Below, one piece after another: positions 42,691 through 47,034 of a DNA stretch of 64,000 nt (the stretch's first letter is position 1; each line of letters begins with the position of its first letter). The stretch is from Fimbriimonadaceae bacterium. Lineage in GTDB: Bacteria > Armatimonadota > Fimbriimonadia > Fimbriimonadales > Fimbriimonadaceae. The notes beneath the pieces were generated by a model. That model searched no databases. It was given only the letters and a program-made list of their open reading frames with translations, and was not told the origin of the DNA. Both the position numbers and the translations under genes were made by a program. The stretch spans positions 2,474,218 through 2,538,217 of the forward strand of contig CP075365.1 in the NCBI GenBank assembly GCA_019454125.1. Reading direction: 5' to 3'.

Positions 42691-44589
42691 TTAAGGGTTG
42701 GTCGTCCTTTGGATCCGCCTGAAGGCGCTGAAGATGTACCGCTGGCCGCTTGCGTCCGGAACAGGCCCGGGGACGTCCTCGGGGTTCCTCACGCCTGCCC
42801 GCCAGTAGAGCACGTTAGAAGTCGGATAGATCGTCGCGGTGTTGATCACCGGAGAGCTCACCCGACCACCAGTCGCCGTCGTAAGATCGATGAAGGAATC
42901 GGACGTAAAAGTTCGCCCCTTCGGGAAATTAGACCGGTCGGATATCTGAATGACGTACTCGAGCGGGATGCTCGCGATCGGGCCGCGCACCGAGCTCACG
43001 ACAAACTTGATCGGCACTTGGACGATCTCGTTGTCCTGCGGGTTCAGCGGCGTCGGCCTATTCAGCGGAGTGGCCTGGCCCCTCGTCGGGACGCGCGGCG
43101 AGACGAAGTAGCAGTAGACCGTGTCCGTGCCACCTGTCGTGCCCCCCGTGCCACCGGTGCCGCCAGTTCCGCCTGTTCCGCCCGTGCCACCGGTACCACC
43201 GGTACCACCGGTGCCACCTGTTCCCCCAGTGCCGCCAGTGCCGCCGGTTCCACCCGTCGTCCCGCCACCGGGCAGGTCGAGCGTGGAGACGCGGTAGACG
43301 ACCTCGACCGAGTGTCGGTAAGGCGTGCCCGGCACAGCCGGAGTGATATTTTCAAAGTCGACGGTGGGCACCGAGTCATTGGTGCACGTCTGGCCGCCGA
43401 TGACCCCGTTGAAGTCTCCCCAGTTCGGGCCGAGGAAGCTCGCGTTGGCGTCGTCGTAGGTGAAGTTTTGGTTGCCGGCCGCGATCGCGACAGGCTCCGT
43501 GTTCTTGTTCTGCCGCCAGACCTGGTATTGCACCGGGCCGATCTGGTTGCCGCGGAAGAAGCTGTCTCGAGTCCAGCTGACCCGGACGGCCGGCACGTCG
43601 TTACCTAGGACGATCGCTTCGCTCTTCACGGCGGAGACGGCGTCCTGGTTGCTCCCACGGCCCTGGCCGAGCAAGAAGCCGAGCAAGGCAAGGACCAGAA
43701 CGAGAGAGACGAGGCCGGAGTTGTCGCCGGACTGCTTGCGCCGCGCAGGCTGCGCGTCGCCAGAATTGGACCACGTGCTGCGGATCTCCGGCACGTCGAA
43801 GACGGCGCGGACCTTGTCCCCCGGCTGCATGCCGCGGAAGCTGCGAGTGGTCTCCACGAACGAACTGTCCGGGTCGACCTCGCGGATGATGCCCTCGGCC
43901 ACTTGGCTCGACCCGCGCGTCACGATGACGCGCTGGCCGTTCTCGAAGCCGACCCGCGACCCGCGGTTGACGAGGGCGCGGTCGTTCAGCGTGTTCAGGA
44001 TCGTTGCCGCCGGAAGGTTCCGGGAATTGATGCTGTTGAGAGCCTGGAAGGCGGCCTGGTCAAAGGCCCGCCGGATCAGCTCTTCGTCGGCGACCTCGCC
44101 AGAGAGGATGTCGGAGTTCGCCCCCAGCGCGGCGCCGTTCACGGCGAGCCCGGAAGCGACGTCCCAGAGGACGATCCGCACGAGCACCTGGCCCTGTCGG
44201 CCGCCGCTCGTGCTCACAATCCGATAGTTGACGACTTCGCCGCTCACCAGGGTGTTCGCCTGCAGAGCCTGGCCGAGCCGCTGAAGGTCAGAGCTTCGTA
44301 CGACGGGGATCTGGTAGCCCAACGTCTCAATCTGTCGCGAAACCGTTTCGAGCGGAACGACCTCGACTTCCCCACGGCGGGCAAGTTCGTTCGCCAAGGC
44401 CTGGACGGCCATCTGGCCGACCGGCATCGTCTGCGACTTCGATTTGTTGACAAACTCGACGAGAGCCCAACTTGGAAGCGTCTCGAGCTGTGCGGCGGCG
44501 GGCATCGCTGCGCAAAGCGCGAAGACGGCGGCCACCATCTTCATTAATGCGGCCCATGCCGACGTTGTCACCAATCCTTGTCGTTTCAC
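42691..44589 (-). CDS. CsgG-like outer-membrane protein with Gly-Gly-Thr linker and C-terminal fibronectin-like part
   Basis: 632 residues; GTG start with a strong GGAGGA 11 bases upstream. Signal peptide about 14-33. The N-terminal domain (40-190) has the CsgG/curli-assembly look: WALVEFVNKSKSQTMPVGQM, LANELARRGEVEVVPLETV, ANTLVSGEVVNYRIVSTSGG and VRIVLWDVASGLAVNGAAL. A control-like beta region (IVTRGSSQVAEGIIREVD) and a membrane helix (LVSLVLVLALLGFLLGQG, about 312-329) follow, then a domain with PAVRVSWTRDSFFRG that resembles fibronectin type III, a run of about 13 Gly-Gly-Thr units (43131-43268), and a final domain. It heads the four-gene surface locus. Whether it forms a CsgG pore is uncertain, because the lipobox and channel strands are not evident. 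Confidence 0.7.
   Translation of the reverse strand: MKRQGLVTTSAWAALMKMVAAVFALCAAMPAAAQLETLPSWALVEFVNKSKSQTMPVGQMAVQALANELARRGEVEVVPLETVSRQIETLGYQIPVVRSSDLQRLGQALQANTLVSGEVVNYRIVSTSGGRQGQVLVRIVLWDVASGLAVNGAALGANSDILSGEVADEELIRRAFDQAAFQALNSINSRNLPAATILNTLNDRALVNRGSRVGFENGQRVIVTRGSSQVAEGIIREVDPDSSFVETTRSFRGMQPGDKVRAVFDVPEIRSTWSNSGDAQPARRKQSGDNSGLVSLVLVLALLGFLLGQGRGSNQDAVSAVKSEAIVLGNDVPAVRVSWTRDSFFRGNQIGPVQYQVWRQNKNTEPVAIAAGNQNFTYDDANASFLGPNWGDFNGVIGGQTCTNDSVPTVDFENITPAVPGTPYRHSVEVVYRVSTLDLPGGGTTGGTGGTGGTGGTGGTGGTGGTGGTGGTGGTGGTGGTGGTTGGTDTVYCYFVSPRVPTRGQATPLNRPTPLNPQDNEIVQVPIKFVVSSVRGPIASIPLEYVIQISDRSNFPKGRTFTSDSFIDLTTATGGRVSSPVINTATIYPTSNVLYWRAGVRNPEDVPGPVPDASGQRYIFSAFRRIQRTTNP
43131..43268 (-). 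repeat. Tandem 9-base repeat coding for (Gly-Gly-Thr)n
   Basis: About 13 uninterrupted units inside the CsgG-like gene, flanked by TTGG variants. Glycine and threonine codons vary between units (ACC, ACT, ACG and ACA are all used; GGT, GGC, GGG and GGA mixed), so the array is old and kept for its protein sequence rather than being freshly expanded. Confidence 0.9.
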
Positions 44590-44777: not shown

Positions 44778-45356
44778 TCAAAGGGCCCGCTTTTGGAGCA
44801 ATCCACATGCCTTCGCTGCGTGTTCGACAGCCGAATGGACGTCGGCCAGTGGCGAGTTGGTTCGGATAATCACGTCCGCGAAGGGAACTTTTGCGGTGGT
44901 CCGCAATTGCGTCTTCATCAAAGCCCGCGCGAGGGCCGGGTCACCAAGGCGCGCGGTGAGGCGCCGCTCCTGCTCTTCCGGGCCGCACGTCACCACCCAA
45001 ACGCGCGGGAAAAACTCGTGCAGCGCCGTTTCGATCAGCAGCGGGATCTCCACCACAGACGCTCGCGACGCAAAGATCTCCGCCGCGATGCGCGGGTGAA
45101 GGACGCGGTTCACGGCCCGCCGGCGCACGACGTCGGCCGCGATGAGGGCGCGCAACCGGTTCCGGTCGAGAGGAGGGGTCTCTCCGAGCGCGTGCGCGAC
45201 CTCGGCCTGGACGACGCGGTCGTCAAGCACACGCGCGGCGATATCGTCGGCGGAGCCGACCGAGACGCCGAGACGCCGAAGGGAGTCGAGCACGGTCGAT
45301 TTCCCTTCGGCAATGCCCCCGGTGAGGGCAACGGTCGGTTTAACTGCCCTGGTCGT
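44778..45356 (-). CDS. coaE: Dephospho-CoA kinase without a visible canonical start codon
   Basis: Phosphorylates dephospho-CoA in the last step of coenzyme A synthesis. The frame reads KPTVALTGGIAEGKST (P-loop) and then LDSLRRLGVSVGSADDIAA, HPRIAAEIF, VVEIPLLIETALHEFFPRVWVV (in pieces) and ERRLTARLGDP, a normal CoaE. But between the upstream in-frame stop and the P-loop there is no ATG, GTG or TTG. The first is the GTG at 45293, after the P-loop, which would delete the ATP site. The candidate used here is ACG at 45356, preceded by GAGGAAGAG; this would overlap rpsA by 17 bases and give 192 residues, normal for the family. Alternatives: GTT at 45344, frameshifting from rpsA, or a sequencing error. 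Confidence 0.8.
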   Translation of the reverse strand, partial: TTRAVKPTVALTGGIAEGKSTVLDSLRRLGVSVGSADDIAARVLDDRVVQAEVAHALGETPPLDRNRLRALIAADVVRRRAVNRVLHPRIAAEIFASRASVVEIPLLIETALHEFFPRVWVVTCGPEEQERRLTARLGDPALARALMKTQLRTTAKVPFADVIIRTNSPLADVHSAVEHAAKACGLLQKRAL

Positions 45357-47034
45357 CGGTCTCTTCCTCGGCGCCCGGCTTGAGGAGTCCTTTCAGACCG
45401 GCAAGCCTCTCGCCGATGGTCGCGCCGCCCGTTGGGGCGCGCATGGTCGCCTGGGGAGCCTCGGTCGACTGCTCGTCGCGGCGCATCGGCCTTCGGCCCC
45501 GGGCGCCGCCACCCGGCCCTCCGGGGCCGCCAGGCCGCCGCTCGCCTCCGCGTCCGCCGTAGCCGTAGTCGGCGCCAGGCTGGGCGTTCTCGCGCAGCGA
45601 GAGCACCATCCTGCGGTCCTCCGCGCGCAGGTCGATGATCATCGGTTCGATCTCCTCGCCTTCGGTGAGGACCTCGTCCGCCTTCTTGATGCGCTTGCTG
45701 GAGCACTCGCTGAGCGGCAAGAACGCCTCCGCGCCCTCGGGCAGACGGACGAACGCACCGCTCTGCACGATCCGGCTGACGTTGACCTTAATCTTCTGGC
45801 CCTGCTTGTAGTTGTCCTTGATCAGGTTCCACGGATCGGGCAGGACTTGGCGCAGGCCCAGGCTGACGCGGCCCGCGTTCGGGTCGAGCCGCAACACCAT
45901 GACCTGGAGCTCGTCGCCCTCCTTCAGGACTTCGCGCGGATGGTCGATGCGGTACCAGCTCATCTCGCTTATGTGGAGAAGGCCGTCGATGCCGCCCAAG
46001 TCGATGAACGCGCCGTAGTCGGTCAGGCGTCGGACGACGCCGGTGAGGACCTCGCCCGGCCGCGCGTTCTCAAAGATGTTGACCTTGACTTCCTCGCGCC
46101 GCTCGTCCTCGGCCGCCTTGTTGCTCAAGACCACCTTGCGCCGCTCGCGGTCGATCTCGATGATCTTTACCACAAGGGTCTGGCCCACGTACTTTTCGAT
46201 ATTGCGGAGCCGACCGTTGCCGACATGGGTCGCCGGCACGAAGCCGCGGACGCCGATGTCCACCACGAGGCCGCCCTTCACGCGGTCCACGACCTGCGCT
46301 TCGAACGCACGACCTTCTTCGAAGGCGTCGACGATGCCGTACCAGGTGGCGTCGAAATCGGCCTTCTTCTTGGAGACCACATGGCTGCCTTCCGCGCTGC
46401 CCGTCTTCAACACGACGACCTGGAACCGGTCGCCCGGCTTCACGATGCCGATCGCCGAGTCCACGTTCTCGTCCGTCAGCTCGCTGAGCGGGACGACGCC
46501 CTCGGCCTTGGTGCCTAGGTTCACGAACACCCGGTCTTTCTCGACCTGGATGACTTCCGCCTCGATGCGGTCGCCTCGCGAGACGCCCTTGTTCGACTCG
46601 CGCTTGTTCGCTTCGTCCGGCTGCATTTCAGCCAGCGCCTGCTCAAAGAGGTCGGCGTCGCTGGGCTGCTCACCGAAGGCCTCCGGCGCCTTTGGGGCCT
46701 CCGCTTCGACGGCCGGTCCCGGCTCGGTTGCGGCGATTGGCTCGGTCGAGGCGGCCGGTTCGGCCGGGGACGGCTCTTCTGCCAAAGCCTCGGTGGCTTC
46801 AGCCGTGGGTTCGGAGGCGGACTCGGCCACAGGCTCTGCGGTGGGTTCCGGCGCGGCCGCGGAGTCGGCTTCCGGCGTAGCGGCAGCTTCCTCGGTTCCG
46901 TTCATCGATGTCGCAACCTGGGCGTCGGAGCCGGGCACTTCGGCCTGGGGCTCGGGACTCGGCGCGACGCCACTGGTTGCCTCGGCTTCCGCCTCGGTCG
47001 CCGTGGGAGTGGTCGTCATCTGATCGTCGCTCAT
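45340..47034 (-). CDS. rpsA: Ribosomal protein S1 with long acidic N-terminus and Arg/Gly-rich tail
   Basis: 564 residues. Four S1 RNA-binding domains lie at about 150-215 (GDRIEAEVIQVEKDRVFVNLG), 235-300 (GRAFEAQVVDRVKGGLVVDIG), 325-395 (GEVLTGVVRRLTDYGAFIDLG) and 410-480 (GQKIKVNVSRIVQSGAFVRLP). It binds mRNA leaders for 30S initiation. Before them is an unusual 145-residue tract of Ala, Glu, Pro and Thr; after them an RGG-like region (GYGGRGGERRPGG, GGARGRRPMRRD) and a tail. The stop codon overlaps the coaE frame. A TAAAAT at 47098-47103 (minus strand) is a good -10 candidate with a leader of about 55 bases. Confidence 0.94.
   Translation of the reverse strand: MSDDQMTTTPTATEAEAEATSGVAPSPEPQAEVPGSDAQVATSMNGTEEAAATPEADSAAAPEPTAEPVAESASEPTAEATEALAEEPSPAEPAASTEPIAATEPGPAVEAEAPKAPEAFGEQPSDADLFEQALAEMQPDEANKRESNKGVSRGDRIEAEVIQVEKDRVFVNLGTKAEGVVPLSELTDENVDSAIGIVKPGDRFQVVVLKTGSAEGSHVVSKKKADFDATWYGIVDAFEEGRAFEAQVVDRVKGGLVVDIGVRGFVPATHVGNGRLRNIEKYVGQTLVVKIIEIDRERRKVVLSNKAAEDERREEVKVNIFENARPGEVLTGVVRRLTDYGAFIDLGGIDGLLHISEMSWYRIDHPREVLKEGDELQVMVLRLDPNAGRVSLGLRQVLPDPWNLIKDNYKQGQKIKVNVSRIVQSGAFVRLPEGAEAFLPLSECSSKRIKKADEVLTEGEEIEPMIIDLRAEDRRMVLSLRENAQPGADYGYGGRGGERRPGGPGGPGGGARGRRPMRRDEQSTEAPQATMRAPTGGATIGERLAGLKGLLKPGAEEETDDQGS

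Follow-up and report, generated by a model that had tools for sequence, protein, structure and literature searches.

How is coaE translated in this bacterium, when the reading frame that encodes the ATP-binding loop of its product offers no ATG, GTG or TTG ahead of that loop? CoaE, the dephospho-CoA kinase, is an essential enzyme that catalyzes the final reaction on the way to coenzyme A. The window analyzed here, a stretch of 64,000 nucleotides from a Fimbriimonadaceae bacterium (contig CP075365.1; genome G000), carries coaE directly 3' of rpsA on the minus strand, with a TGA stop at 44780-44778. A preliminary description of this DNA had noted the missing start and had offered three explanations for it, namely initiation at an ACG behind a purine-rich stretch, a +1 shift at the rpsA stop, and an error in the assembly.

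The coaE gene and its junction with rpsA

Reading of the frame bore out the missing start: the 24 codons between the in-frame TGA at 45395-45393 and the P-loop include no ATG, GTG or TTG (0/24). Moreover, none of the frames of the window contains one of these codons between -83 and -12 nt relative to the GG of the P-loop. The ACG at 45356 and the purine stretch GAGGA (45369-45365), to which the preliminary description had pointed, are both present, and a coaE beginning at this ACG would share 17 bases with the end of rpsA. The features of the junction are collected in Table 1.

Table 1. Features of the rpsA-coaE junction, in positions of the window.
Feature	Position	Strand	Basis or remark
rpsA (ribosomal protein S1, 564 aa)	45340..47034	-	ATG start at 47034; TAA stop 45342-45340
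coaE (dephospho-CoA kinase), 192 aa if begun at the proposed ACG	44778..45356	-	TIGR00152 match
In-frame TGA closing the coaE frame upstream	45393..45395	-	sequence reading
GAGGA, Shine-Dalgarno-like, 8 bases upstream of the ACG	45365..45369	-	pairing energy to the 16S tail, -5.9 kcal/mol
Proposed ACG start codon, 12 codons ahead of the P-loop GG	45354..45356	-	inferred
P-loop GGIAEGKS of CoaE	45297..45320	-	sequence and alignment
GTG, first canonical start codon of the coaE frame, downstream of the P-loop	45291..45293	-	ORF reading

The rpsA product gave its best match among the NCBIfam S1 models with NF005208 (residues 145-485), where its 360.9 bits fell just below the equivalog cut-off of 368. 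Ahead of the part that matches the S1 model, the N-terminus of S1 (46600-47034) contains a long acidic stretch of approximately 115-145 residues rich in Ala, Pro and Glu. Downstream of coaE, a tandem repeat with 9/18/45-base units (43125-43257) encodes a Gly-Thr-rich stretch in a secreted-looking protein.

Read from the proposed ACG, CoaE scored 80.1 bits with TIGR00152, above the curated cut-off of 65.55, and 94.4 with PF01121 (cut-off 27), the latter profile giving one match in the whole 2.65 Mb single-contig genome. The P-loop is intact, and 39 columns are invariant in an alignment of 12 CoaE sequences (window, its congener G001 and ten relatives), to the profile of which PDB dephospho-CoA kinase chains also align. 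By family score and conserved positions, the window gene is a dephospho-CoA kinase, its enzymatic activity being predicted from sequence. A second complete coaE elsewhere in the genome, the possibility that the preliminary description had set against its own reading, was not found by the genome-wide search with PF01121. Neither G000 nor G001 gave a match to PF04019, the archaeal-type alternative kinase; both genomes contain coaD.

A protein that begins at GTG 45293, the first canonical start in the frame, would lack the P-loop. That CoaE is made in this form, or that the gene is dying, is scarcely credible, since the P-loop and the 39 columns are identical across the window, G001 and the ten relatives, and since a genome that has coaD would be left with neither another CoaE nor a PF04019 kinase.

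Start codons of coaE in the family and in a congener

CoaE was found in 82 of the 85 family genomes searched, and 81 coaE loci were read, G013 being omitted as cut at a contig end. A canonical start was located 4-30 codons upstream of the P-loop, often at -6, in 77 of these 81 loci; the four exceptions were the window, G001 and two loci of genus g30, L079 (G102) and L081 (G106). In L079, the coaE frame has no start, and a neighboring frame has GTG codons next to a G run; in L081, the ATG and the P-loop share one frame, which is broken shortly afterwards. Both broken frames are probably assembly indels. The loci truly without a canonical start were thus two of 81, the window and its congener.

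The missing start by itself is statistically unremarkable, as 20 codons without a canonical start are expected by chance with P ~0.49 under the trinucleotide frequencies of the window. It is odd because this coaE encodes the only CoaE of the genome and because nearly all loci of the family have a canonical start. A wider set of genome contigs, many from the same genomes, gave 69 loci; one of them (JALHNM010000003.1, the G001 contig) had no canonical start in the open frame, in five more the only canonical start was 17 or more codons upstream or else stood too near the P-loop, and no third member of the genus was recognized among the 69. In a tree of S1 plus CoaE for 23 chosen rows, the window and G001 were sisters (99/96) within a seven-genome clade (99/98); a quick tree of 68 rows was built as well.

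Several relatives deserve mention in their own right. The coaE of G025 (L012) has an ACG at -10 with GAGGAG (-8.7), plus a GTG at -21 inside rpsA. This genome was not counted as a third ACG genome: the GTG 21 codons upstream has a Shine-Dalgarno (SD) sequence (-9.5), and G025 does not group as sister to the genus in the tree. The F. ginsengisoli genome paper reports the dephospho-CoA kinase as absent (PMC4072686). Yet among relatives, a coaE with an ordinary ATG was seen in L041 (G062) and in L106, which belongs to the MAG record Fimbriimonas ginsengisoli Gsoil 348 isolate ME-21oct19-239.

The one same-genus genome compared, G001, encodes a CoaE that is 55% identical to that of the window. Its coaE frame opens at the rpsA TAG and reads CCT ACG GCC CGA CGC CCG TTC GTC GCC CTG ACC GGC GGC. 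No ATG, GTG or TTG occurs in any frame within 120 nt upstream of the P-loop, and the ACG is the only codon one base from ATG ahead of the P-loop, apart from a CTG that stands two codons before the P-loop and is too late as a start, as the first strand would be lost. Six bases upstream of the ACG lies AAGGAG, a near-perfect SD with an energy of -8.8 kcal/mol.

The neighborhood was compared through 63 ortholog-like pairs between 264 kb of G000 around the window and the 272 kb contig C3 of G001. In six of the 63 pairs, the aligned part began more than 3 residues ahead of the first canonical start of G000. For five of the six, the distance was 4-41 residues, and the stretch upstream of the start, which scored 11-59, appears to be either conserved leader DNA or a chance extension; the gene after coaE has 41 residues upstream of its start, and G001 has a start ahead of the match there. 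For coaE, 22 residues in G000 and 20 in G001 precede the first canonical start, with a score of 73 and the P-loop included, and it was the only one of the 63 pairs with a conserved functional motif ahead of every canonical start in both genomes.

As a control, seven infC loci were read in the same way as coaE. Four of the seven (G000, G009, G012 and G025) lacked a canonical start ahead of the IF3 motif and had an ATA 15-16 codons upstream of it, G001 and G008 had the ATA plus an ATG at -11, and the IF3 motif was not matched in G021, the seventh locus. This outcome fits the known non-canonical start of infC.

Assembly error, fusion to S1 and the choice of the start codon

Assembly or consensus errors could conceal a canonical start in both genomes. 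The coaE frames of the two g30 loci are indeed broken by apparent indels, at least some single-base insertions in the window would spell a new start codon, and in G001 the same would result from one deletion and from one insertion, each within the rpsA stop. Against this, two independent assemblies would need errors at the same gene, and no canonical start already present nearby could be moved into frame by an insertion or deletion. All that such a change close to the junction could do is extend the open frame back to codons deep inside rpsA or spell a new start. The VALTGG ahead of the P-loop is intact in the window and in G001, and the reading frame at the P-loop is therefore sound in both. 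The assembly error considered in the preliminary description is thus quite improbable, G001 being likewise without a canonical start and without a usable one for an indel to bring in.

The production of CoaE as a fusion to S1 was also considered. In G001, rpsA and coaE are in the same frame and separated by a single TAG, which could be read through, whereas in the window coaE lies in the +1 frame and would be reached by a shift at the rpsA stop. Such a fusion would need two different recoding events in two congeners, and AGT TAA A is no slippery site known to us. The preliminary description had suggested the +1 shift together with a comparison of the rpsA-coaE junction in related genomes, and it is this comparison that speaks against the shift: the recoding geometry is not shared, and one frameshift cannot serve both genomes when coaE of G001 follows the TAG in the frame of rpsA. 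Because the frame relation differs between the two, a shared frameshift or fusion mechanism is unlikely, and the fusion as a whole appears very improbable. A 735-codon open frame in G101, examined as a natural S1-CoaE fusion, was rejected: the end of rpsA lies in a different frame, and coaE has its own ATG.

Initiation of coaE at a non-canonical codon is therefore probable, and we hold this with considerable confidence. The ACG is the best candidate shared by the window and G001 at the sequence level. The 16S tail, which was used for the SD energies, is normal and was found once in each of G000 and G001; with it, the energies in the window were -5.9 kcal/mol for the ACG, -3.8 for AGG and -3.0 for GTT. 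On the other hand, 11 of 76 other loci carry an in-frame ACG at -5 to -14 without needing it, and in the +1 frame of rpsA, the frame used by coaE in the window, 25 of the 564 codons are ACG. As ACG is common in that frame and elsewhere, finding one is weak evidence. Purine stretches are likewise expected at the junction, because the tail of rpsA is rich in Glu codons. A DNA alignment made with 15 gap settings never paired the two ACGs, and the printed one paired the ACG of G001 with the AGG of the window; a further DNA alignment did not match the two ACGs either, and only tblastn paired ACG with ACG. Owing to the frequency of ACG and to the DNA alignments, our confidence that ACG specifically is the start codon is lower than that in non-canonical initiation, and we regard it as only somewhat favored. 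For the ACG start put forward in the preliminary description, the second genome thus brought support through its own missing start and its ACG behind a near-perfect SD, while positional homology of the two codons failed in the DNA alignment.

Non-canonical initiation could instead use another codon, such as AGG 45350 or GTT 45344 in the window, through re-initiation after rpsA. This possibility is consistent with the pairing of the G001 ACG with AGG, with the GTC and GTT starts reported for Streptomyces sigR (PMC5472188), and with a report that loss of the ribosome recycling factor leads to non-canonical starts after a stop (PMC2268962). AGG and GTT fit the SD of the window worse than ACG does, and G001 offers no near-cognate codon besides ACG in a plausible position. 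Consequently, we consider a codon other than ACG possible but unlikely.

The initiator tRNA (CAT) was normal in a pattern search. An altered initiator tRNA with the anticodon CGU was rejected: a pattern allowing one mismatch gave CAT tRNAs, and the GT-for-AT matches listed held no tRNA. G001 has one CAT tRNA gene on contig C2 and two further ones (L161 and L166), which have the initiator-type GGGCTCATAACCC stem, on the small contig C19. Initiation at the ACG predicts that the N-terminus of CoaE is formyl-Met or Met followed by TRAVKPTVALTGGIAEGK.

A proposed weak start behind rpsA and its meaning

The reading that we prefer, and consider rather likely, is that coaE is translated from a codon that is not ATG, GTG or TTG, most likely the ACG at 45356-45354, which the CAU initiator tRNA would use as a low-efficiency start at the end of rpsA. 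Ribosomes finishing rpsA, or binding at its end, would start coaE at the ACG, and the ordinary initiator tRNA would read this codon behind the Shine-Dalgarno-like stretch with low yield. The use of ACG and the coupling to rpsA are what we infer; the absence of a start, the single CoaE, the intact motifs and the SD-like sequence are observed. The weak start may keep the level of CoaE low next to a ribosomal protein that is abundant, possibly with control by IF3, as analogy with sigR, ccpN/cvfC1 and the work on re-initiation would suggest.

In G001, a strong hairpin (L003:2036-2088; 53 nt, -24.7 kcal/mol, z -3.3) covers the coaE SD and the rpsA stop, and translation of rpsA would open it. No SD-covering hairpin was found at the junction of the window (z 1.2), and coupling by RNA structure is thus not common to the two genomes; an RNA structure shared by both junctions was dropped from consideration, the SD hairpin being present in G001 only. 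Weak or absent starts were found in 8 of 18 loci with a short rpsA-coaE gap versus 9 of 45 others (Fisher P 0.063), with a 70-nt threshold of our own choosing, with the window and G001 included, and with 17 of 80 loci in which rpsA was not found. A rule that weak starts occur near rpsA was not adopted, as this is a trend only.

Genes with non-canonical starts are already known; an essential metabolic gene with a conserved ACG would add a new form to them. Among the closest parallels is infC, which encodes IF3: it is likewise a housekeeping gene with a conserved non-canonical start (AUU, AUC or AUA) and a good SD, although its codon is of the AUN type and it is autoregulated by its own product, whereas CoaE has no known tie to IF3. 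Streptomyces sigR resembles coaE in that a rare start is kept across species behind a long SD and is mis-annotated by gene finders (PMC5472188); the start is reported as GTC in 32 of 34 cases and GTT in two, and the GTC start is repressed by IF3 (PMC5472188). It differs in codon and gene, and was shown by experiment (PMC5472188). In S. aureus, ccpN (AUA) and cvfC1 (AUU) have conserved weak starts with an extended SD and a reduced protein yield; unlike the proposed start of coaE, these are AUN codons, and they were mapped by ribosome profiling (PMC13009471).

C-to-U editing is not known from bacterial mRNA. Chloroplast genes also have ACG at their start, and there it is edited to AUG by C-to-U editing in plastids (PMC9845219). 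Among the starts that sORFdb lists for bacterial sORFs no longer than 20 residues are AAG, ACG and AGG, which is annotation and not proof (PMC11796252). No bacterial housekeeping gene with an ACG start was found in the literature searched, most subscription papers being outside its reach.

Gene finders mostly allow ATG, GTG and TTG, and with these a coaE of this kind would be lost or cut downstream of the ATP-binding loop. A weak start codon can also serve to regulate how much protein is made. A genus-wide ACG start in an essential gene, fixed as a weak start coupled to rpsA, open to IF3 and tying coenzyme A synthesis at a low level to ribosomal protein synthesis, is a tentative extension that we regard as doubtful at present. 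If ACG is used, it would add a codon beyond the AUN group and GUC/GUU to the natural starts of bacterial housekeeping genes and would provide a clean case for how weak a start an essential gene tolerates. It would also raise the question of whether such a weak start is made tolerable by the ribosomal gene with high expression that lies ahead of it.
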